DNA from: Desulforapulum autotrophicum
GTDB lineage: Bacteria > Desulfobacterota > Desulfobacteria > Desulfobacterales > Desulfolunaceae
Direction: 5' to 3'
Assembly: GCA_020723285.1 (NCBI GenBank)
Contig: DYJE01000007.1
Location: forward strand, 62,001 to 126,000
DNA: 64,000 nt
The notes under the pieces are model-generated. The model saw nothing but the letters and a program-made list of their open reading frames with translations. It was not told where the DNA came from and searched no databases. Shown here one piece after another: positions 13,533 through 38,771 of the stretch. Position 1 is the stretch's first letter. Each line of letters begins with the position of its first letter. A program made the translations under genes and the position numbers.

Positions 13533-14680
13533 TGAACGGCATCTACATTCACGTTCCGTTCTGTGTGAAAAAGTGCGGTTACTGTGATTTTTATTCGGTG
13601 ACGGACCTTGGCCTTACGGATCTGTTCGTTACCGCCCTGGTTCTTGAGATCAAACGGGTTGCCCAAACCATCCCCCAGGCTGAACGTTTAACGGATTCGG
13701 TCTATCTGGGAGGAGGCACCCCGTCCCTCCTCACCATGGCCCAGCTTGAAACCCTTCTCGAAACGGTAAACATCTGCTACACCCTTGCCCCCGGCACGGA
13801 AATCACCGTTGAAATGAATCCGGGCACCGTGGCGGTCCGGAATCTTGAAACCATGAAAAGCCTGGGCGTCAACCGCCTGAGCGTCGGCGTGCAATCCTTT
13901 CAGGAAGACCACCTTCGGTTTTTAGGACGGATTCATACGGCGGGAGAAGCGGAACATGTCCTTCAATCCGCCATGGCCAAGGGCTTCGACAATGTGGGCA
14001 TAGACATCATCCATGGACTTCCGGGGCAGGACGTGAAAAATCTTGAAAAAGATCTGGAAAAAGCGCTCCGGTACGATCCTGCTCATCTGTCCTGCTACAT
14101 GCTGAGTTACGAAGAGGGCACGCCTCTTTACAGGGCCAGGCGGAAAAAGGAGTTCAAACCCTTGAGTGAAAGCAAGGGAGCCCTCCTGTTCAACCACACG
14201 ATCGATATCCTCGAAAAGGCCGGATACCACCATTATGAAATCTCCAATTTCTCACGAACCCCTGGAACCCGGTCCCGGCACAACATGAAATACTGGAATT
14301 TCGAGCCTTATCAGGGCTTCGGCCCTTCGGCCCATGCTTATGATCCCAAAGTGCCGAAGCGGTCCTGGAACGTCCGGAATCTGGAAACATACCTGAAACA
14401 CATCCAGCGCGGCGAAGCGCCCGAAGAAGGCCGCGAGAATCTGTCCCGGACCCAGCAGATCACCGAGGCGGTGTTTCTGAGTCTGCGCATGCGTGAGGGT
14501 CTTGATATTAAAAAGTTCAATGCCCGGTTCCTGGCCGACTTTAGGGCTGATTTTGAAGATCCCCTGTCACGGCTTCGTGACAGCCACCTCCTTGACTCGG
14601 ACGATAACCGTGTCTTTCTGACACGAAAAGGGCTCCTTTTTGCCGATCATGTTGCATCTGTGCTGTTAAGCGAATTTTAA
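13532..14680 (+). CDS. hemW: HemW, radical SAM heme chaperone
   Basis: The 382-residue protein begins MNGIYIHVPFCVKKCGYCDF, with the HemW cluster motif CxxxCxYC. Further family marks are VYLGGGTPSLL, ITVEMNPGTV, GVQSFQ and YEISNFSRTPG with a C-terminal winged-helix-like region. HemW resembles oxygen-independent coproporphyrinogen oxidase HemN but lacks its first cysteine context and is thought to deliver heme to membrane respiratory enzymes. The frame is open far upstream; the start at 13532 is chosen because it overlaps the preceding stop and begins at the conserved IYIHVPF. DUF362 follows about 100 bases later. Confidence 0.93.
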   Translation: MNGIYIHVPFCVKKCGYCDFYSVTDLGLTDLFVTALVLEIKRVAQTIPQAERLTDSVYLGGGTPSLLTMAQLETLLETVNICYTLAPGTEITVEMNPGTVAVRNLETMKSLGVNRLSVGVQSFQEDHLRFLGRIHTAGEAEHVLQSAMAKGFDNVGIDIIHGLPGQDVKNLEKDLEKALRYDPAHLSCYMLSYEEGTPLYRARRKKEFKPLSESKGALLFNHTIDILEKAGYHHYEISNFSRTPGTRSRHNMKYWNFEPYQGFGPSAHAYDPKVPKRSWNVRNLETYLKHIQRGEAPEEGRENLSRTQQITEAVFLSLRMREGLDIKKFNARFLADFRADFEDPLSRLRDSHLLDSDDNRVFLTRKGLLFADHVASVLLSEF

Positions 14681-14779
14681 TTCCAACTTTGCATAAGATG
14701 GTTTATGAAACATGCGTAACCGGAGTTTATCCGTTGCCATGTGCCATGAACATTCGAACACGTATGAAAGGAGATTCCC

Positions 14780-16075
14780 ATGACATCTGTCGTTGCCCTC
14801 GGGAAATATGCCCCGGACACGGACGCCCTAAAAAAAACCATCGAACTCGCAGGAGGATTCGGCCGTCTCAAATCAACGGACCGGGTCATGATCAAGCCCA
14901 ATCTGGTGGCATGGGACGATCAGTATCCCATCGCGCCTTTCGGTGTTTATACTACGACCCGGCTGGTGGAGGATCTGGTTCTCTGTCTGAAGGAGTTCGG
15001 CTGTTCGAAGATTTCCATCGGGGAAGGTTCGGTGGTCATCAAAAAAGGCATGGGTACCATGGCGGCTTACGAAGGTCTGGGGTATACCGCACTTGCAAAA
15101 AAATACGGGGTCACCCTGGTGGATCTGAACGAAAGCGAGGCGGAGGTGTTCGAATATCAGGACGGCATGGAGCTTCACATTGCCAGGGAAGCTGTGGAAC
15201 AGGACTTCTTCATCAATTTCCCCGTCCTTAAAACCCACGGGCAGACCAAAGTTTCCCTGGGGCTGAAAAATCTCAAGGGATGCCTGAAACTGAAGTCCAA
15301 ACGCCACTGCCACAACCCGGATTCCAATCTGGAATACGCTTTTTCCCATATTGCGGATTATGTGAAACCGGCACTGACCCTGGTGGACGGGATTTACGCC
15401 CTTGAAAAAGGCGCCCTTCACTTTGGAAACGCCTTCAGGAAAGACATCGTCATCGCCTCCACGGACATTCTTGCGGCAGATCTCGCCGCTGCCCGGACCA
15501 TCGGTTATTCGGGGGACGACATCGATCATATTCGGCATTACGCCGAACGTCACGGGAGATCCTGGAACCTTGGGGATTACACCTGTGTGGGCGAACCCAT
15601 CGCCGACCATGTGAAACCCCTGAAATGGGACTGGTCCTGGACACCGGAAAACACAGGCCCCGGCATTTTCTCCAAGATGGGCATTACCGGCACGGCGCTT
15701 CCCAAATACGATGAAACCCTTTGCTCCGGATGTTCTCCCATCGCCAACCTCAGCAATATCCTGGTGTTGTCCGCGTTCAAAGGCCAGCCGCTTCCCAGTG
15801 TGGAGATTCTGAACGGAAAGAAAATGCAGGCCCGGACCGGCTATGAAAAAACCGTGCTTCTGGGGAACTGCATGATCAAGGCCAACAAGGAAAACGAAAA
15901 CATCCGGGATGCGGTACCGGTGAAAGGGTGCCCACCCGCGGAAGACGATGTGGTCAAAGCTCTTCAGTCCGTGGGGCTTGATGTGAATATTCTGGCTTAT
16001 TACGGATACATGAAACAGCAGAGCGAAAAATACGACGGCAAGGAAGGGTATGACAAAGGGCTGTTCACAGCCTGA
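14780..16075 (+). CDS. DUF362 domain protein
   Basis: The 431-residue protein starts after AAAGGAG. It has the DUF362 core: VMIKPNLVAWD near residue 36, FINFPVLKTHGQTKVSLGLKNLKG near residue 150 and a long C-terminal part with scattered cysteines (LCSGCSP, GNCMIK, VKGCPP). DUF362 proteins are often found in anaerobes with iron-sulfur domains; here no classical CxxCxxCxxxC ferredoxin module is present, but the cysteines could hold a cluster. No reaction is established. The gene stands alone between hemW and mgtC. Confidence 0.85.
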   Translation: MTSVVALGKYAPDTDALKKTIELAGGFGRLKSTDRVMIKPNLVAWDDQYPIAPFGVYTTTRLVEDLVLCLKEFGCSKISIGEGSVVIKKGMGTMAAYEGLGYTALAKKYGVTLVDLNESEAEVFEYQDGMELHIAREAVEQDFFINFPVLKTHGQTKVSLGLKNLKGCLKLKSKRHCHNPDSNLEYAFSHIADYVKPALTLVDGIYALEKGALHFGNAFRKDIVIASTDILAADLAAARTIGYSGDDIDHIRHYAERHGRSWNLGDYTCVGEPIADHVKPLKWDWSWTPENTGPGIFSKMGITGTALPKYDETLCSGCSPIANLSNILVLSAFKGQPLPSVEILNGKKMQARTGYEKTVLLGNCMIKANKENENIRDAVPVKGCPPAEDDVVKALQSVGLDVNILAYYGYMKQQSEKYDGKEGYDKGLFTA

Positions 16076-16168
16076 TTCAATGAAATAGTGTGGGCTAATT
16101 TCATTTGAAACATAGGCAGCAAACGATGATTGGTTGCCGGATAAGATTCCAAGGCAGGGGGAAGGGGC

Positions 16169-16882
16169 ATGGATCTGACACTGGGCGGACATTATGTGGA
16201 ATACAGAAGCATTCTGACCCACCTTACAGGCGGTCTCATTGCAGGTGGGCTTATCGGTTTCGAGCGGAGTTTCAGGGGGCGTCCCGCCGGGTTCAGAACC
16301 CATACGCTGGTCTGTCTGGCGTCGAGCCTTCTGATGCTCGTCACCATGTACCAGTGGAAATGGCTGCCGGGCGTTCCTCTGGAAACCGTCAAGACAGATC
16401 CCACCCGCATGGCTCAGGGTATCATGACCGGTATCGGTTTTCTTGGCGCCGGGGTAATCTATAAGGAGGGATTCTCAATCCGGGGGCTGACCACCGCCGC
16501 CTCCATCTGGATCACCGCTGCCATCGGCATTCTTTTCGGAGTCGGATTTTTTTTCCCCGCCGTGGTGGCCACCATCCTCACCGTGGGGATTCTCGCGGCA
16601 TTCCGCTGGATCGAACGCAGTATTCCCACAGAAAAATACATTCATTACTCGGTTCTTTTTGACCGAGACAACCCTTTGCCGGAGACAAACCTCCGGCAGC
16701 TTCTGAAAGACCACGGTTTTTCCATTTCAACCATGAGCTACCGGATCACAGGCGACGGGAGATATATTGAGTACAAGACAGTGATGGAAACACGCCGGTA
16801 TCGAAACGCATCCAATCTTTCCGAAACGCTGAGAACCATGGATCTGGTCAAAGGGTTCAGGATTTCTCCTTCAGGTGATTGA
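16169..16882 (+). CDS. MgtC/SapB family membrane protein
   Basis: The 237-residue protein has an N-terminal MgtC domain of four or five membrane helices containing GGLIAGGLIGFERSFRGRPAGFRTHTLV and AQGIMTGIGFLGAGVIYKEG, the two diagnostic motifs, followed by a soluble C-terminal domain of about 90 residues. MgtC-type proteins are inner-membrane proteins implicated in magnesium homeostasis and, in pathogens, in inhibiting F-type ATP synthase; in free-living anaerobes their role is open. The gene ends 12 bases from the stop of a convergent unknown gene. No magnesium leader could be recognised upstream. Confidence 0.9.
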   Translation: MDLTLGGHYVEYRSILTHLTGGLIAGGLIGFERSFRGRPAGFRTHTLVCLASSLLMLVTMYQWKWLPGVPLETVKTDPTRMAQGIMTGIGFLGAGVIYKEGFSIRGLTTAASIWITAAIGILFGVGFFFPAVVATILTVGILAAFRWIERSIPTEKYIHYSVLFDRDNPLPETNLRQLLKDHGFSISTMSYRITGDGRYIEYKTVMETRRYRNASNLSETLRTMDLVKGFRISPSGD

Positions 16883-16894
16883 AAAGATGGAAGT

Positions 16895-17959
16895 TCAGCT
16901 GGCGTAAACGATGTTGACACTCAATGGGTCCATGGCGATGTTGCCGGGGACGGGCAGGATGTGCTGACCGTGAACGGTGAGCCAGCCCTGGTCGGGTTTG
17001 AGTCCGCGAAGTTTGCCGTTTTTCGGAAATGACGAGTGGGGGGTGTGGTCGTAAGTGACCTGGAACAGACAGACGCCGTCTTTTTCTTCGTAGTCCACCA
17101 GAAAATTTCTTGAAAAGCGGTCGAGGTTCATGCCGTTTTCTTCGGCGATGTCGAGCATCTCACTCAACGTGAGCCGCAGAAGAACGGTTTTGGTCAGCCC
17201 TCTTTCCGAAAACCGAAGAATGGACCGGGATTCGCTGCTGCAAACGTAGACGGTGGAGACGCAGGGAAGCCGCTTGAGATACTGGGCCGCAACGCCTGCT
17301 GCAGTGCGCCGTCCGCCGGCCATGACCGGGAGGCCGTAATATTCGAAGAATTTCTTCTGGACATCTTCGGCGTATTTGTCGCCGCGTTCGTAAAGGTCCT
17401 TGAGGATGTACCGGAGATCCCGGGCCAGTTCTTCAGCGGCGTCGGCAATGGGCCAGTCCACACGGACATGGTAATGGGATATGCCGTAACGGTCTTTGCC
17501 CTTGACCGATTCGTCCCGTTGGATCAACAGGGCGTAGTCCACGTCCAGAAGGCTGTTCATGAAATTCTTGAATTTCACGGAGTCCAGGTATCTCTGGTTC
17601 CGGTCGAAATTGTCTTTGAGGGTGAGCAGGTCCGACGCAATGAGGTTGGTTTTGGTGACTTTGTTCACGTCAAAAAAACGGATATGTTTTTTGCACGCGG
17701 CCGGAACCACATCCTCCACGAAGATCAGAAGAAAGCTGTTGACCAGATCGTATTCCATGCCCGGTATACGCGCTCTTGGTTTGAGTTCCCTGCGTTCCAC
17801 AAAGGGGAAGGGGACATCCTTCATTTTGAAGTTTTTAAGTGAGTCGATGAGGCCGTAAGAAAGAACCAGCTGATCCAGGTCATCACGAAGCAGTTCGTAA
17901 TAGGATCGCCTGAGTTTGTTGGCGCGGCTCAGTTCTTCCCTGTACCTCCAGTGCGGCAA
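16895..17959 (-). CDS. Hypothetical protein, 354 residues
   Basis: I do not recognise a family. The protein is soluble, with no signal peptide or membrane helix, and starts with TTG at 17959 (MPHWRYREELSRANKLRRSY) six bases after GGAG; no in-frame ATG is better placed. The N-terminal part is helical and charged, the middle contains a HYHVRVDWP stretch, and the C-terminal third is rich in beta-type sequence (VYVCSSES, LFQVTYDHTPHSSFPK, GWLTVHGQHILPV, NIVYAS). It is a single-gene unit between mgtC and the ribosomal rplI operon. Codon use looks native, and the long frame with many conserved-looking residues supports a real gene. Confidence 0.8.
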   Translation of the reverse strand: MPHWRYREELSRANKLRRSYYELLRDDLDQLVLSYGLIDSLKNFKMKDVPFPFVERRELKPRARIPGMEYDLVNSFLLIFVEDVVPAACKKHIRFFDVNKVTKTNLIASDLLTLKDNFDRNQRYLDSVKFKNFMNSLLDVDYALLIQRDESVKGKDRYGISHYHVRVDWPIADAAEELARDLRYILKDLYERGDKYAEDVQKKFFEYYGLPVMAGGRRTAAGVAAQYLKRLPCVSTVYVCSSESRSILRFSERGLTKTVLLRLTLSEMLDIAEENGMNLDRFSRNFLVDYEEKDGVCLFQVTYDHTPHSSFPKNGKLRGLKPDQGWLTVHGQHILPVPGNIAMDPLSVNIVYAS

Positions 17960-20704: not shown

Positions 20705-20759
20705 CAGTGTGCTTTCAGACAAAACGGACATTAAAAGACTCCATGCGAAAGGAGAACCC

Positions 20760-22232
20760 ATGAATAAAGCCGGTTACGCGATTAAAGAATACCATGATGT
20801 GGACGATATCTACCGTCGGCTGAACCACCTGATCCGCGAACCCATCCGGACGTTGAAACCCGCGGCCATGAAGGCATATCTTCGATATTTCGAGGAGCGC
20901 TGCACAGCGTCGAAAAAAATGATCGACGAAGCCAAAAGCGTGATTCCCGGCGGTGTCCAGCACAATCTGGCCTTTAATTATCCTTTCCCCCTGGCGTTTG
21001 AAAAAGCGGAAGGGGCGTATCTATACGACATCGACGGAAACCGGTACATCGATTTTCTTCAGGCGGGCGGCCCCACGGTCCTTGGAAGCAATCCCCCTCA
21101 AATCCGGGAAAAGATCGTGAAACTCCTTGAAACCTGCGGACCGGTCACGGGGCTGTTTCATGAATACGAACTGAAGCTGGCCAGATTCATCTGCGACCGT
21201 TTCCCCGGCGTCGACATGTTTCGGATGCTGGGCAGCGGCACCGAGGCGGACATGGCAGCCATCCGGGTGGCCAGGCTGGCCACGGGAAAGAAATTCATTA
21301 TCAAACAGGGGGGGGCCTACCACGGCTGGAGCGACCAGCTGTCCTACGGTATGCGGATTCCCGGCACCGGGTCTCTGGAATCCCACGGCATTCCCAGATC
21401 CTGCTTCAAATACACCCAGGAGGTGTATCCCAACGACATTGAGGCCCTTGAAAAGAAATTGGCTTCAAACCGCTGGCGTGGCGGCACGGCGGCGGTGATT
21501 GTCGAGCCTCTGGGGCCGGAAAGCGGCACCCGTCCCCTTTCCTACGAATACAACAGAAATGTCCGGGACCTGTGCGACCGGTACGGAGCCCTTCTGATAT
21601 TCGACGAGGTGGTCACGGCGTTCAGGCTGGGCATCGACGGCGCGCAAGGGTATTTCAACGTGGTTCCGGATTTGACGGTGTTCGGCAAGGTGGTGGCCGG
21701 CGGCTACCCTTCCGCCGGAGGTCTTGGCGGAAAAGAGAAGTACATGGCCTGTCTGGCCGGAGGTCTTGGCGGAAAATCGTCCAAAAAGGCCCATGTGGGC
21801 GGAACCATGGCGGCGAATCCTTTAAGCTCTGCCGCCGGATATTACACGGTGACGGAGATTGAGAAGACCAACGCCTGCGAAAAGGCAGGTCTGGCCGGAG
21901 ACCGACTCACCCGAGGTCTTCAGGCCATCATGGCCAAATACGGCCTGCCTTTTGTGGCTTACAACCAAGGCTCCATCTGCCATCTGGAGACTGTGGGAAC
22001 CATGCTGTTCGACATCAGCCTTAGATGGTTCTGGGAGATTCCGTCGAAACTCAAGGAGATCCACGCCCGGAAAGACATCATGACCCACATGGGGGCGGCG
22101 TACATGGCCGAAGGTCTCGTGACCCTTGCCGGAAGCCGTCTGTACACCTCGGCGGCGGATACGGATGACATCATCGACGACGCCCTCACACGGTTCGACC
22201 GGGTGTTCGCACAGATCGAAGGGGTAAGATGA
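20760..22232 (+). CDS. Class III aminotransferase, glutamate-1-semialdehyde aminomutase-like
   Basis: The 490-residue PLP enzyme starts at ATG 20760 behind AAAGGAGAA. Motifs are IPGGVQHNLAFNYPFPLAFE, LYDIDGNRYIDF, GSGTEADMAAIRVAR, FDEVVTAFRLG (PLP Asp) and FGKVVAGGYP (Schiff-base Lys). It resembles glutamate-1-semialdehyde aminomutase but is about 60 residues longer and lies in an unrelated operon, so it is probably an aminotransferase or aminomutase on another substrate. Just after the active-site Lys a 21-base sequence is repeated in frame 42 bases apart, giving GGLGGK twice. Its stop overlaps the aldolase start by four bases. Its promoter carries the TetR-type palindrome. Confidence 0.85.
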   Translation: MNKAGYAIKEYHDVDDIYRRLNHLIREPIRTLKPAAMKAYLRYFEERCTASKKMIDEAKSVIPGGVQHNLAFNYPFPLAFEKAEGAYLYDIDGNRYIDFLQAGGPTVLGSNPPQIREKIVKLLETCGPVTGLFHEYELKLARFICDRFPGVDMFRMLGSGTEADMAAIRVARLATGKKFIIKQGGAYHGWSDQLSYGMRIPGTGSLESHGIPRSCFKYTQEVYPNDIEALEKKLASNRWRGGTAAVIVEPLGPESGTRPLSYEYNRNVRDLCDRYGALLIFDEVVTAFRLGIDGAQGYFNVVPDLTVFGKVVAGGYPSAGGLGGKEKYMACLAGGLGGKSSKKAHVGGTMAANPLSSAAGYYTVTEIEKTNACEKAGLAGDRLTRGLQAIMAKYGLPFVAYNQGSICHLETVGTMLFDISLRWFWEIPSKLKEIHARKDIMTHMGAAYMAEGLVTLAGSRLYTSAADTDDIIDDALTRFDRVFAQIEGVR

Positions 22233-22912
22233 TGAGCAGGGACGCATTGTACAGACTGTCCATGGAACAGGCCAGAGAGCTGGTGGTGGAGTCCGGTCTG
22301 CGGCTGGTTCGTGAAGGGCTTGTGGCCAGAACCTGGGGAAACATCAGCGTCCGTGCCGATGAAGATTCGTTTTTCATTACGCCCAGCGGCATCGCTTATG
22401 AACGGATGCGGCCGGAACATATCGTCCGGGTGTTCATGACGGACCTCCGGCATGAGGGCGCTGTCAAGCCTTCGTCGGAAAAGGCTCTGCATCGGGCGAT
22501 CTATGAATTGAAACCCACGGCACGGGCCATTATCCATACCCATCAGACGGCGGCGTCCTCATTATCCTGTGCCGGGAAAACCCTTTTTACGGTATCCGAA
22601 GAAGAGAAAACAACACTCGGCCCCAGCGTCCGGACAGCGGCATACGCCCTTCCGGGAACAAAGAAGCTGGCCCGTTCGGCGGCTGCGGTCATCGGCGACG
22701 GCAACGCCGTTCTTCTCGCCAGTCACGGGGCAGTGTGCGTGGGCCGGGACATGGACGAGGCGTTCAGGGTATCGCAGGTTCTTGAAGACCTTTGTGAGCG
22801 GGTGGTGGCGGACGCTGCGGCACGGTTGTCCGGAAAATCTCAAACCACACGGGAATCCATATATTCCCTTTTTATTGACCAGCATACCCGGAGGCCGGCA
22901 GATGGCTGTTGA
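22229..22912 (+). CDS. Class II aldolase/adducin family protein
   Basis: The 227-residue protein has the class II (L-fuculose-1-phosphate type) aldolase fold: TWGNISVR and FFITPSGIAYE for phosphate binding, the Glu in SSEKALH, the zinc pair HTH in IIHTHQTAAS and the third His in ASHGAVCVGRD. It would cleave or form a sugar-phosphate-like aldol, producing dihydroxyacetone phosphate or a related fragment. It is coupled by a four-base overlap to the aminotransferase and overlaps the next gene by 11 bases. Substrate is unknown. Together with the FGGY kinase that shares the same operator it suggests kinase-then-aldolase chemistry. Confidence 0.85.
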   Translation: MMSRDALYRLSMEQARELVVESGLRLVREGLVARTWGNISVRADEDSFFITPSGIAYERMRPEHIVRVFMTDLRHEGAVKPSSEKALHRAIYELKPTARAIIHTHQTAASSLSCAGKTLFTVSEEEKTTLGPSVRTAAYALPGTKKLARSAAAVIGDGNAVLLASHGAVCVGRDMDEAFRVSQVLEDLCERVVADAAARLSGKSQTTRESIYSLFIDQHTRRPADGC

Positions 22913-23549
22913 TGGACAGAACACCCGTACCATGAAAACGTTTTGCGCCATGCTGATCGCGGAAGGTGTCATCCCCGGCAATGGTGAGGGTTTTAGTATG
23001 AGATATGATGACGAGCTGCTGTATCCCGTTGCCACAGACGGCGGTATCGCCATCGCCGCGTGCCCCATGGACGGTCTTGATTTTGCGATTCCGGTCTGGG
23101 TCAAGCGTCACCGTGATATTCACAGCCGTAAAAAGGGCGTGATGGTTCTGATTTTTTCAAGACTGCCCAACACCCTGGCCTGTGCCAAAGCCGGAATCAA
23201 CATTCCGCCCCTTCTGGATGATTTTGCCCAGCTTGTGGGGGTTGACGCGAAATCCCTTGAAAGGGATTCCGGAAAACCCTCGTTTGCAGGTACGGTGATC
23301 AAGGGCCTTGCACTGAGAAACGCCGTGCTGATCAAGGACGCAGGAGGGCTTTGCGCAGCCGGTGATTTTGACGATGCCCATGCCGTGGTCCAGGTTCTTG
23401 AAAAGAACTGCCGGGCCGTGGTGGACATGTTCTTTTTCGGTGGCGGCCGCCCGATCACCTGGCTCGACGCCTGGCTTATGCGTCTGGTGTACCGGTACAA
23501 GTACGCGAAAAAAAAGACTCCCGGCGAGAATTCAGGGTCCGGGCTCTGA
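22902..23549 (+). CDS. Metal-site-less paralogue of the class II aldolase
   Basis: The 215-residue protein aligns along its length with the preceding aldolase by eye: GNGEGFSMRYDDELLYPVATDGG parallels the phosphate-binding start, and DDAHAVVQVLEKNCRAVVDM parallels DEAFRVSQVLEDLCERVVAD. Every catalytic ligand is replaced: the HTH pair by PNT, the third His by an Ala-Gly segment and the Glu by Lys. It is therefore probably a non-catalytic partner or a binding protein. The start ATG 22902 lies inside the end of the aldolase gene. The call as an aldolase-fold protein is my reading and would need a structure prediction to confirm. Confidence 0.65.
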   Translation: MAVDGQNTRTMKTFCAMLIAEGVIPGNGEGFSMRYDDELLYPVATDGGIAIAACPMDGLDFAIPVWVKRHRDIHSRKKGVMVLIFSRLPNTLACAKAGINIPPLLDDFAQLVGVDAKSLERDSGKPSFAGTVIKGLALRNAVLIKDAGGLCAAGDFDDAHAVVQVLEKNCRAVVDMFFFGGGRPITWLDAWLMRLVYRYKYAKKKTPGENSGSGL

Positions 23550-35598: not shown

Positions 35599-36222
35599 TC
35601 AACCGTTCACCATGCCCGTGGCGAGAATGGTGAAAACGGTGTCGATGATGTCATCGGCGGCCTGGTCATCCGGTGAACCTGTGGGGCTGTCCAGGCGGTC
35701 GTTGCACAGGGCGTCCACGATGCCCACCAGGGCCAGGGCGGAAAGGTCACGGTTCAGGGGTTTCAGGTAGCCTCGTTCCTGGCCGGTGGCCAGGGTTTCC
35801 TTGATGAAGCCGATGAATTTTTTCCGAACGTTTTTGATTTCCGTGAGGGCGTCGTTGTCGATGCCGCTGGAGAGTTCGTTCACGTAGATCCGTGTGACTT
35901 CGCTGTGCTGGAGATACAGACGGATGGTGCAGGATAAAAGCAGTCTGAAATGCTCGATGAACGGCAGTTCCGATTCCAGTTCACGGCTGATGTTGGCCAT
36001 GATTTCTTCCATGCCCTCGGTGACCGTCGCGGCGAACAGCTTGGATTTGCTGGCGTAATTGTAATAGAGGGTGCCTTTGGCCACCTGGGCGGAAAGGGCG
36101 ATCTCGTCCATGGTGGTCTGATGGTAACCTTTTTCGGAAAAGATTTTTTTGGCCGCTTCGAGGATGCTTTGCTGCTTGGTCATATGTTCGAGCCTGGTTT
36201 TGTTGATCAGCCTGATTACCAT
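35599..36222 (-). CDS. TetR-family transcriptional regulator
   Basis: The 207-residue protein has an N-terminal TetR helix-turn-helix (AAKKIFSEKGYHQTTMDEIALSAQVAKGTLYYNYASKSKLF, residues about 23-63) and an all-helical ligand domain. The start at 36222 follows AGGGG; ATG 36183 (MTKQQSIL) is an alternative. It lies beside the FGGY kinase on the same strand. Three copies of the palindrome ACTGAC-N2-GTCAGT, of typical TetR-operator size, lie at 20655, 38064 and 38781, and none stands before tetR itself. It is the best candidate for binding them, without autoregulation. The ligand is unknown but may be the hydrophobic compound carried by the nearby FadL-type channel. Confidence 0.88.
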   Translation of the reverse strand: MVIRLINKTRLEHMTKQQSILEAAKKIFSEKGYHQTTMDEIALSAQVAKGTLYYNYASKSKLFAATVTEGMEEIMANISRELESELPFIEHFRLLLSCTIRLYLQHSEVTRIYVNELSSGIDNDALTEIKNVRKKFIGFIKETLATGQERGYLKPLNRDLSALALVGIVDALCNDRLDSPTGSPDDQAADDIIDTVFTILATGMVNG

Positions 36223-36389
36223 GGAACCCCTGTCCGTCTGTTGTGATGAGTATAATCTCCGATGACCGACCTTTGCCGAATCTAAGACCGCATGATGAAG
36301 TCTTTGATTGAAGGCGGTTTCATCCGGATTTTTTTTTAAATTCCATATCTACAACAGAGGGTTGCTTAAAATCAACCACCTTTAACACA

Positions 36390-37991
36390 TCACGGACGCT
36401 CCGGTTCATTGAGTGCCCGGAAAAGATGCCGGTTGGCCTTGTAAAGACCGGTGAACACCCGGAAATTGCGCTCGTACACCTTTCGTGTTCCCGGTCTTGG
36501 CTGATAGGTTTCCCCCATGGGAATCATGGGCTTGGCGTCCTCGAAACGGTTGAGGAGTCCAAGGCCCACGGCGCAGACCACGGCGGCTCCGGCTGTTCCG
36601 ATATCCTGGGGGTACTTGACGGTCCTGACAGTTCGTCCCAGGACATCGGCCATGACCTGACACCACACACTGGACCGCGCGCCGCCGCCCACGAAACAGA
36701 CGCTGTCGTTCCGGGGAATTTTCTTTTCCATGGCTTCGAGGATCCATCGTTTGTGGTAGGCCACACCCTCCACCACGGCCCTGACCATCTGCCGTTTTCC
36801 CGTGGTCATGCCGAGGTTGAAGAACATGCCCCGTGCGTGGGTGTCTTCCCGGGGTGCCCGGTTGCCGTGGAGCCAGGGCGTGAAGATCAGGTTGCCCGCG
36901 CCGGGACCGGTTTCTTCAACGGCCTGGTTGAGCAGGGCGTACAACCCGTCCAGCTGTTCCGGCAGGTCTTTCCGGTCTTTCAGGTAGACCCCGATTTCAT
37001 CCAGGGCCAGGTGGTCGCGGACCCACTGGAGGCAGGCCCCGGATGTTTCCTGTTCACCGATGTAGTTGTACCGTCCGGGAATGGCCCCGAAGATGGAGGC
37101 CATGAAATTGCCGATATCGAGAAGCCGTCTGTCCACGTTGGAGGAGACCCAGCCCGAGGTTCCCACGTACACATGGGTGTCGAACGGTGCAAGGCATCCT
37201 GAACCGATGGCGGCCATGGACACGTCGCCCCCGCCGCCGAAAACCGGAAGCCCGGAAACAAGGCCCAGATCCCTGGCCGCCGTTTCCGTGAGATGACCCA
37301 CCACGTCCGTGGCGCTGACCACGTTTGGGAGGTGGGCCGTATCCACGCCGAACATCCGGCAGAGCCCTTTATGCCATCCTTCCTTGCCGGGCCGGGTGTC
37401 GTAGATAAAGGTGACGTGGGCCGAATCCCGGGTCATGCCGCAGACACCGGTGCACCGGAGAATCAGGTAGTCTTTCACGTCCATCCAGGTATGGAGTCGG
37501 CTGAACACCTCCGGTTCGTTTTCACGGACCCAGTGGTATTTCCATAAAGGGTCCTTGGGCGTTGCGGCCACTCCTCCGGTGATATATAAGGTTTTCAGAG
37601 CTTTCACGGCGTTCATGCCGCTGATGCGAAAAAGGCCGTGGCCCAGGTTTTCTTTCATCTGTTTTACGGCACGGCCGTCCATGTAAACCATGGGATTTCG
37701 CAGGGAGTGTCCGCGTTCATCCACAAATACCGAACCCTGCATCTGGCAGCAGAAAGAAATCCCGTGGATGTCGGAAGGACGGACCGACGCGGCGGTCAGG
37801 GTCTTTCGTGTGGTTTCGCAAAGGGCCTTCCACCAGTCCTCGACCCGTTGTTCCGCACCTCCGTTTTCGGTCATGAACAGGGGATACTGGGCCATGGCTG
37901 ACGAAACAAGGGAAAGACCCCCGTCAATCCGGTAAAGACAGGTTTTACAGCCGGTGGTGCCCAGATCGTAGGTGATAACCAGGGTGGACAT
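36390..37991 (-). CDS. FGGY-family carbohydrate kinase (xylulokinase-like)
   Basis: The 533-residue kinase starts MSTLVITYDLGTTGCKTCLY, the FGGY phosphate-1 motif, behind GAGG. The second half contains GGGGDVSMAAIGSG, YVGTSGWVSS and the FGGY signature FVGGGARSSVWCQVMADVLG. It phosphorylates a sugar or polyol; closeness to XylB is by wording only. The frame is open to 38063, but the -10 box (38029-38034) lies inside that extension, which rules out the upstream starts. Its promoter carries the TetR-type palindrome six bases upstream of -35. No isomerase gene is present nearby, so this is not an ordinary xylose operon. Confidence 0.88.
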   Translation of the reverse strand: MSTLVITYDLGTTGCKTCLYRIDGGLSLVSSAMAQYPLFMTENGGAEQRVEDWWKALCETTRKTLTAASVRPSDIHGISFCCQMQGSVFVDERGHSLRNPMVYMDGRAVKQMKENLGHGLFRISGMNAVKALKTLYITGGVAATPKDPLWKYHWVRENEPEVFSRLHTWMDVKDYLILRCTGVCGMTRDSAHVTFIYDTRPGKEGWHKGLCRMFGVDTAHLPNVVSATDVVGHLTETAARDLGLVSGLPVFGGGGDVSMAAIGSGCLAPFDTHVYVGTSGWVSSNVDRRLLDIGNFMASIFGAIPGRYNYIGEQETSGACLQWVRDHLALDEIGVYLKDRKDLPEQLDGLYALLNQAVEETGPGAGNLIFTPWLHGNRAPREDTHARGMFFNLGMTTGKRQMVRAVVEGVAYHKRWILEAMEKKIPRNDSVCFVGGGARSSVWCQVMADVLGRTVRTVKYPQDIGTAGAAVVCAVGLGLLNRFEDAKPMIPMGETYQPRPGTRKVYERNFRVFTGLYKANRHLFRALNEPERP

Positions 37992-38028
37992 GGATGCCTC
38001 GTTTGGGTGAAGGTTTTTGATTGACATC

Positions 38029-38088
38029 ACTATAGGAAAGCGCCTAAGGTGTGTCAAGTTCAAACTGACTGGTCAGTACAAATATAAC
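38029..38088. promoter_or_regulatory. Divergent promoters of FGGY kinase and HAD gene with TetR-type operator, copy 2
   Basis: On the minus strand TTGACA (38052-38057) and TATAGT (38029-38034), spacer 17, drive the kinase; the palindrome ACTGACTGGTCAGT (38064-38077) lies six bases upstream. On the plus strand TATAAC (38083-38088) with TTCAAA (38059-38064) as a weak -35 would drive the HAD gene, and there the palindrome lies between the two boxes, where binding should block transcription. Confidence 0.75.
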
Positions 38089-38102
38089 AGGGAGTTGTCA
38101 CG

Positions 38103-38771
38103 GTGGAGAAACGAGCGGCTTTTTTTGATTTTGACCGGACCTTGATCACCGGAGACAGCCAGAGCCTCGAATTACGTCACATCCTTAAAACCGGAGTCCC
38201 GTCACGGATGTTTTATCCCCGGCTTCTGCTGGCCGCCGCCGCGGATGTGCTGTACCATGTGGGCCTTGTGTCACCCCGCATCCACAACCTTGCGTATCTC
38301 AGGACTTACCGCCATGTGGCACTGAAGGACATCGAGGCCAGGGGACGGGAACTTTTCGAAAACGTCATTTGCCGCGCATTCATTCCCGGAACCATGAACC
38401 TCCTTGAGCGCCATGTCCGCGATGGGACACTGATCGTTATTGTCTCCGCCACCACCTGCCAGATCCTTGAACCGGCGGTCCGGGCCGTTCAGCCTGATTT
38501 TGCTCTGTGCACCGGTCTTGCGGTGGATAACTGTGGCCGGTGCACGGGGTATCCCCAGGGAGACATCTGCATCGGAGAGGAGAAGGCGAAACAGGTGAAA
38601 GCCCTTGCCCTGGAACAGGACATCGACCTATCTTCATCCTTTGCCTACTCCGACCATCATGCGGATCTTCCCCTTCTGGAAGCTGTGGGATTTCCGGCGG
38701 CGGTCAACCCTACACCGCGGCTTTTGAAACTGGCCAAGTCCCGTCAATGGCCGGTGCATCGCTTTTTCTGA
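38103..38771 (+). CDS. HAD-superfamily IB phosphatase
   Basis: The 222-residue protein starts with GTG at 38103 behind AGGGAG. HAD motif I is AAFFDFDRTLITGDS, motif II is IVIVSATTCQI, and the last motif is AYSDHHADLPLLEAVG. It belongs to the IB group that includes SerB-like and lysophospholipid phosphatases, with a helical cap of about 100 residues containing hydrophobic stretches (RLLLAAAADVLYHVGLV). It probably removes phosphate from a small or amphipathic substrate. It is transcribed divergently from the kinase across the shared palindrome and ends ten bases before the operator of the FadL-type gene. Confidence 0.85.
   Translation: MEKRAAFFDFDRTLITGDSQSLELRHILKTGVPSRMFYPRLLLAAAADVLYHVGLVSPRIHNLAYLRTYRHVALKDIEARGRELFENVICRAFIPGTMNLLERHVRDGTLIVIVSATTCQILEPAVRAVQPDFALCTGLAVDNCGRCTGYPQGDICIGEEKAKQVKALALEQDIDLSSSFAYSDHHADLPLLEAVGFPAAVNPTPRLLKLAKSRQWPVHRFF

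Follow-up and report, generated by a model that had tools for sequence, protein, structure and literature searches.

The window analyzed here is a stretch of 64,000 nucleotides from Desulforapulum autotrophicum (contig DYJE01000007.1, positions 62,001 to 126,000 of the forward strand). Three genes follow one another in it: a class III aminotransferase, a class II aldolase (A), and a second protein of aldolase fold without a metal site (P). Comparison with their relatives makes it likely that A and P together form a single class II aldolase in which neither subunit is dispensable, shaped by complementary loss after a duplication and with the active sites at the A:P faces. From the residue patterns we infer a physical complex of alternating 2:2 order, in which activity would be confined to the A:P face. 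An initial annotation of this DNA had described A and P as an active and an inactive aldolase, and had proposed either an obligate heteromer or a ligand-binding role for P. The heteromer is well supported by the comparison (linkage, fusion in Bacillota, and complementary decay), and the ligand-binding role is not favored. The description as active plus inactive is not favored either, because P retains, almost unvaried, what a subunit of a FucA-type enzyme contributes in trans to the site of its neighbor. P is thus better described as the other half of the active site.

The reference for the comparison is FucA of E. coli, a tetramer with each active site in a cleft where adjacent subunits meet. 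In the accessible part of the source, Glu73 is written unprimed and Tyr113' belongs to the neighbor; the phosphate is bound by Asn29, Thr43, Gly44, Ser71, and Ser72 (PMC11841055). A docking study, as far as its text is accessible, gives Ser71, Ser72, Glu73, Asn29, and Phe131 as unprimed and Tyr113', Met114', Val202', and Phe206' as primed (PMC11274987). Titles of PDB entries record FucA in which Tyr113 and Tyr209 were mutated jointly. We take the histidine ligands of the metal to be residues 92, 94, and 155. All column numbers below are those of FucA; the metal, phosphate, and Glu half of the site is called cis, and the loop and C-terminal helix lent by the neighbor are called trans.

The HTH, SHG, and Glu that the initial annotation saw in the first protein are all present in A (HTH at 103–105, H166, and E84 in the motif PSSE). 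A scores 160.1 bits against the Pfam family Aldolase_II (cut-off 22.2), and a sequence search of the PDB returned matches of the FucA type (best 5.3e-24). The residues for the neighbor's site are absent from the A chain, which has Glu-Glu at columns 113–114 and His at 209. P is homologous to aldolases, as had been proposed, and lies above the same Pfam cut-off (1.4e-5, 25.5 bits). A BLASTP alignment of A with P (E=3e-7) spans only 35 residues, and a PDB sequence search with P alone gave one insignificant match (E 0.13). The initial annotation had made its claim depend on the predicted fold of P. The model, built on seven homologues, is aldolase-like, with a mean predicted local distance difference test (pLDDT) score of 74 and a predicted template modeling (pTM) score of 0.69. 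It matches FucA-type aldolases (Foldseek 1.3e-10; Z 19.4 and a root-mean-square deviation of 3.5 Å over 188 residues aligned to 2opi_A). Its weak regions are residues 105–113, which are part of the trans loop, and those beyond 203. In the window copy of P the three histidine ligands and the catalytic Glu are replaced by F85, R87, A147, and W66. The Ala-Gly read earlier at the SHG column was confirmed (D146-A147-G148). The earlier readings PNT at the HTH columns and Lys at the Glu column were three and two residues off, respectively; alignment with relatives places F85-S86-R87 and W66 there.

In Bacillota (Clostridia, Paenibacillus, Evansella, Sedimentibacter), A and P form one protein of about 400 residues, mostly encoded beside the same aminotransferase. 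We therefore refer to split and fused forms, and aligned 121 domains: 10 split A, 10 split P, 42 fused A, 42 fused P, single aldolases of the groups S1 (6), S3 (4), and S2 (5), FucA, and AraD. The fused forms come from 42 of 64 fused-gene loci (65 genes), a choice that limits the size of the alignment and avoids truncated copies. Loci L016, L019–L023, and L039 repeat L013, L010–L012, L160, L015, and L014; they stand once in the alignment and are counted in the tally of 75 loci given below.

The cis columns 29, 43, 44, 71, 72, 73, 92, 94, and 155 are invariant in S1, S3, and all 10 split A, and in at least 41 of the 42 fused A. They are mostly lost in P: at 29, 71, 73, 94, and 155, the residue of the single forms occurs in 0/10 split P. 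The trans set behaves in the opposite way. Asp113, Asp114, Gln117, and Tyr209 are present in 10/10 split P and 42/42 fused P and are also invariant in S1 and S3. Tyr209 is found in 0/10 split A, and no equivalent Tyr occurs in the tail of the A half in any of the 42 fused proteins, which were read uncut. The single aldolases of S1 and S3 (n=10) carry both sets in one chain. In these ten proteins 90 columns are invariant. At a 90% threshold the split pairs retain 37 of these in A only, 16 in P only, 13 in both, and 24 in neither; the fused forms retain 30, 11, 5, and 44, respectively. Under a strict rule that takes split and fused forms together, 18 columns are A-only, 6 are P-only (L112, D113, D114, Q117, I193, and Y209), 4 are kept in both, and 62 are none of these. 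All ten cis positions tested (29, 43, 44, 71, 72, 73, 92, 94, 131, and 155) are A-only in the split pairs, whose P-only columns include 113 and 114, both published as trans. P is a paralogue without the catalytic residues, and the two proteins hold complementary halves of a shared site, with column 202 as the exception.

Several observations weigh against this reading. Column 202 (Val202', a published trans position) is A-only in the split pairs, with the His of the single forms in 9/10 A and Arg in 10/10 P, and the column of Phe206' is too variable for a test. Split A retains Met201 (7/10), His202 (9/10), and Tyr205 (9/10), so that its C-terminal helix has not fully decayed. The Glu-Glu of window A at columns 113–114 might replace Asp. 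The cis half of P is not uniformly lost: the first His (FucA H92) is retained in 7/10 split and 35/42 fused P, Glu73 in 25/42 fused P, and window P has Thr at column 43, identical to the residue in FucA. The statement of the initial annotation that P lacks every metal ligand thus holds for the window copy (0/3 ligands) and fails for the family, in which the first His is often present; the second metal His occurs in 0/10 split and 2/42 fused P, and the third in 0/10 and 0/42. The trans loop of P (105–113) is modeled at low confidence. That Tyr209 of FucA is a trans residue is our assumption. Finally, the aminotransferase was not seen in the stretch examined at 15 of 75 P loci.

The simplest course of events would start from a FucA-type homotetramer in which each site consists of a cis half and the neighbor's loop and C-terminal helix. 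After duplication, A would have retained the cis half and P the trans half, each letting its other half decay. Of the two kinds of face in a mixed ring, A-cis:P-trans would be complete, and in P-cis:A-trans neither side would work. Asp113 and Asp114 of P would stand in for Tyr113'-Met114' of FucA, and the C-terminal Tyr of P for Tyr209; the acid or base given in trans would then be the Asp that replaces Tyr113'. In Bacillota the genes of A and P became fused. Apart from column 202, the residue pattern is close to what a mixed ring predicts.

P could instead be a structural or allosteric prozyme that binds, stabilizes, or activates A and gives no residues to the active site. The linkage, fusion, and co-grouping data also fit such a role, and column 202 is a misfit to the shared-site model. 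There is also a precedent in the AdoMetDC of trypanosomatids, which, according to the accessible text, has a dead paralogue as its activator (PMC3663545). However, most of the P-only columns belong to the loop and the C-terminal helix, with which a FucA-type subunit reaches into its neighbor's site, and these are lost in A. We consider a prozyme unlikely.

The shared-site pattern was also examined in 29 held-out fused genes, the 23 left of the 65 genes and 6 from an aminotransferase search in the class of Sedimentibacter. These rows played no part in the choice of columns, yet they are related to the fused forms of the alignment, from which the profiles that detected them had been made. Glu73, His92, His94, and His155 are present in 29/29 of the held-out A halves, and Ser72 in 27/29. 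Asp113, Asp114, and Gln117 are present in 29/29 of the P halves, and Tyr209 in 28/29, the single miss being cut off by the end of the locus. At column 209 the A halves score 0/29, where the gap is partly made by the position at which the fused proteins were cut. The variability of the loop 109–117, in windows of nine residues, is at the 1st percentile in both P and fused P.

A further alternative takes A for a common homomeric aldolase and P for a neo-functionalized enzyme with its own reaction, linked to A through a pathway. In its favor, P has conserved polar residues (LDD, Gln, and Tyr), and 4/10 split A have Glu at column 113. In A, however, the loop 109–117 is among the most variable stretches (95th percentile in A, 99th in fused A), and the lost Tyr209 of fused A argues in the same direction. 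An independent function of P is further at odds with three short fusions from Clostridia (325–337 residues), which lack much of the N-terminal half of P. Their P parts, of about 125–130 residues, are without most of the former phosphate and Glu-site region and retain DD.AQ and the terminal VYK.KYSK. This alternative is very improbable. In two of the three loci (L172 and L173) the short fusion is upstream of the aminotransferase, not downstream. For the fused Paenibacillus protein, a model of high confidence (pLDDT 92.2, pTM 0.91) suggests a definite packing of the two halves. Matches in a fold search with this model cover the A half (residues 1–200) and are thus silent on the P half.

P was searched for in 8 genomes of the family and 194 of the order, and its profile in 291 genomes of the class. 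Matches were found in 5/8 family genomes, that of the window included, and 6/194 order genomes. Within the class, 97/291 genomes matched the profile. Nine places reached E<1e-40, namely five P genes and four single aldolases; the weaker matches (E 1e-26 or weaker) include A genes that adjoin P, and the remainder are presumed to be other aldolases. Three Desulfoluna species of the window's family have the same three genes adjacent. Of the 242 loci from a scan with one genome per species, we kept 79 that are distinct. These loci were found through P's own motifs and thus carry no information on how frequent each form is. Profile scoring places a P domain in 75 of the 79: in 64 it is fused to A, in 9 it directly follows A, and in 2 it begins 2 and 55 bases from the contig start. 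An aminotransferase at least 50% identical lies within the stretch at 60 of the 75 P loci, and the copies near the aldolase genes of relatives are mostly 61–82% identical.

These data bear on two other readings of P. The first, a ligand-binding or sensor protein independent of A, would account for the conservation of P under purifying selection despite the loss of its metal site. It is contradicted by 73/75 P loci with A fused or directly upstream, the other two being at a contig end, and by the former cis columns of P, which vary where the trans elements do not. There is very little to commend this reading, and its probability is slightly lower still than that of a neo-functionalized P. The second, a decaying pseudogene, draws on the window copy, which has no metal ligand left. 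However, the frame is open, and ratios of nonsynonymous to synonymous substitution (dN/dS) by the NG86 method among the three Desulfoluna species are 0.21–0.27 for P, like those of A (0.22–0.25). YN00 gave 0.10 for one of the three P pairs and no value for the other two. P also has relatives in genomes and metagenome-assembled genomes (MAGs) named Desulfobacterota, Myxococcota, Spirochaetota, and Bacillota. A pseudogene is hardly credible.

A search centered on the aminotransferase is freer of the bias toward P motifs. In the window's class, 22/389 genomes matched at E<1e-120, 19 of them at 63% identity or more and 3 at 46–47%. Beside the 19 we found a split pair in 6, an S1 aldolase in 6, and in 5 a more distant single aldolase (S2) with another gene in front of it; in the remaining 2 the stretch contains no aldolase (L151 ends with the aminotransferase gene; in L154 some 2 kb follow it). 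Among genomes of the class of Sedimentibacter, 9/341 matched at E<1e-150, with 10 copies. The Sedimentibacter locus itself (L086) carries an A-P fusion. At the nine other places a fused A-P adjoins the aminotransferase in six and is absent from three: L167 ends 100 bases on, the aminotransferase of L174 is only 54% identical, and the genome of L170 has two copies, with the fusion beside the other one. Searches with the aminotransferase in the classes of Maribellus (1/345) and Paenibacillus (1/348) matched nothing but the genome from which each had started. None of the aminotransferase-centered places has an A-type protein without P; no search of all genomes for A alone was made.

Single aldolases occur in the same setting. 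The aminotransferase accompanies 6/6 S1 and 1/4 S3 (L090); of the three S3 loci without a visible aminotransferase, two begin within 0.5 kb of the contig start and L094 does not. S1 (Desulfobacterota) and S3 (Bacteroidota) resemble A and P combined in having both residue sets in one chain. They differ in having no P, are presumably homomers, and resemble the state before the split. The S2 aldolases (L155–L159, motif PAL(F/Y)DEVA) lie with an aminotransferase 62–63% identical to that of the window; they retain Asp at column 113 and not Tyr209. At L157 and L159, the two S2 loci examined, an FGGY kinase lies between aminotransferase and aldolase, and a TetR gene follows.

A tree of 79 domains, with every second fused locus taken (21/42), unites P with fused P (support 100/100) and A with fused A (92/96, slightly under the 95 mark). 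The A and P groups together with S1 and S3 exclude S2, FucA, and AraD (87/92). P groups weakly with S1 and S3 (81/84); its exact placement is unsure because the P branches are long. The same sub-groups recur in both the A and the P group: the window with L013 and L017, six other relatives of the order, and the fused forms. The simplest reading of these sequences would be that an S-like ancestor was duplicated once and that the fusion, too, happened once. On balance, we find it reasonably likely that all stages are extant around one recurrent cassette: the self-sufficient homomer, the obligate complementary heteromer, the fusion, and fusions from which much of the dead half of P is deleted, so that the domain is kept only for the residues it lends to the neighboring active site.

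The closest mechanistic precedent is the deoxyhypusine synthase (DHS) of trypanosomatids. There a dead paralogue (DHSp) completes a site shared with DHSc, and, in the accessible parts of the sources, the tetramer has two live and two dead sites (PMC3663545, PMC7581365). According to the same parts, DHS differs in its unrelated fold and eukaryotic origin and is shown by experiment, whereas the A-P complex is predicted; fused or shortened forms like those of A-P are not mentioned there. FucA (PF00596) shares the fold, the residues of A aligned with its His ligands, Glu73, and phosphate binders, and the site between subunits. It differs in that, to judge from the FucA literature accessible, its tetramer is built of one kind of subunit and uses Tyr113', whereas A and P divide the cis and trans halves between them, with Asp-Asp in place of Tyr113'-Met114'. 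AraD (L-ribulose-5-phosphate 4-epimerase) belongs to the same superfamily and also has an inter-subunit site, in which the accessible text names Asp120 and Tyr229 as catalytic (PMC5434028). It has one kind of subunit only, and its Asp120 aligns with FucA 117, where P has Gln, and thus offers no equivalent of the Asp of P. The adducins alpha and beta, paralogues with non-catalytic class II aldolase domains, assemble into heterotetramers (PMC12599920, accessible part). In that account, they differ in that both partners are dead and bind the cytoskeleton, unlike A, which keeps all three His. No heteromeric or pseudoenzyme class II aldolase was found in the literature searched, which leaves most subscription journals outside its coverage. 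If the present reading is correct, this would be a heteromeric class II aldolase with half an active site per subunit, whose presumed pre-split, split, fused, and reduced forms would all be open to experiment. The debated idea that obligate heteromers arise by complementary loss after duplication would become testable in E. coli with small proteins. It would also be a warning for annotation, as both the seemingly complete aldolase A and the seemingly dead copy P would be misreadings.

The coordinates of the features are collected below. The aminotransferase likely starts at the ATG at 20760, and its frame overlaps that of A by 4 bases. The 11-base overlap of A and P reported earlier was confirmed (the ATG of P is at 22902, and the TGA of A ends at 22912).

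Table 1. Positions of the aldolase pair, its functional residues, and associated genes in the window, and of short fusions in relatives
Feature	Position	Strand	Basis or remark
Class III aminotransferase (glutamate-1-semialdehyde-aminomutase-like)	20709..22232	+	Pfam Aminotran_3 5.4e-50; NCBIfam best PRK00062 3.1e-85, below cut-off
A, class II aldolase subunit, metal site intact, without trans residues	22229..22912	+	Pfam Aldolase_II 6.9e-47; residue columns
A Glu84 (FucA Glu73; motif PSSE)	22478..22480	+	alignment column
A His103-Thr-His105 (FucA His92, His94)	22535..22543	+	alignment column
A His166 (FucA His155; motif SHG)	22724..22726	+	alignment column
GGAGG, likely ribosome-binding site of P, within the end of A	22890-22894	+	
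P, aldolase-fold partner without metal site	22902..23549	+	Pfam; predicted fold
P Phe85-Ser86-Arg87, at the columns of the metal ligands HTH	23154..23162	+	alignment with relatives
P trans element 1, PPLLDDFAQ, residues 102–110; first Asp at the FucA Tyr113' column	23205..23231	+	
P trans element 2, C-terminal helix M193–Y201; Tyr201 at the FucA Tyr209 column	23478..23504	+	
TetR regulator, likely orthologue of the TetR near the cassette of relatives	35599..36222	−	Pfam TetR_N 6.4e-17
FGGY carbohydrate kinase, likely orthologue of the cassette kinase	36390..38063	−	Pfam FGGY_N 1e-40, FGGY_C 1.4e-32
HAD-IB hydrolase, recurrent neighbor of the kinase, cassette membership uncertain	38103..38771	+	Pfam HAD 2.1e-31
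Short A-P fusions	L171:4142-5116; L172:1380-2384; L173:6907-7917		P half without much of the N-terminal part

The combination of an FGGY kinase with a class II aldolase follows the logic of fuculose and rhamnulose breakdown. Clustering places an FGGY kinase in 32/79 loci and a TetR gene in at least 18/79 (one TetR cluster, hence a lower bound); a major facilitator superfamily (MFS) transporter was seen at three examined loci. As A retains the residues aligned with the phosphate site of FucA, its substrate is probably a sugar phosphate. The kinase would form the sugar phosphate and the aldolase would cleave it, with the aminotransferase acting before or after. Together, the aminotransferase and the FGGY kinase indicate a catabolic route, whose starting compound is perhaps an amino sugar or amino polyol. 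Our guess is that the aminotransferase takes the place of an isomerase and converts the amino sugar or amino polyol to a ketose. The literature searched, with the same limit to its coverage, gave nothing on a cassette that combines class II aldolase, FGGY kinase, and class III aminotransferase.

In the window, the TetR gene and the FGGY kinase lie 13 kb downstream of the pair (35599–38063). The kinase is 48–69% identical to nine cassette kinases and 32% to that of L090. The TetR protein is 47–65% identical to the TetR of five relatives and 24–32% over short stretches to four others, and the HAD-IB hydrolase is 33–43% identical to neighbors in three relatives. The genes at 35599–38771 thus resemble those near the aldolase cassette of Desulfoluna, and the cassette seems to be split in the genome of the window. 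A tblastn search of the window with three MFS transporters of the cassette gave no match at 1e-3, and Pfam searches of 20 larger window frames outside the trio recognized no further pathway genes besides the TetR, kinase, and HAD genes. On one MAG contig (L047:5679-8480 and 13915-16462), the aminotransferase and the fusion occur twice, about 8 kb apart and with equal scores, through either a tandem duplication or an assembly artefact. Elsewhere in the window, an open frame of 354 residues (16895-17959, minus strand) has no Pfam match at 1e-3; it sits between an MgtC-family gene and ribosomal-protein-like frames at 18–20.5 kb.

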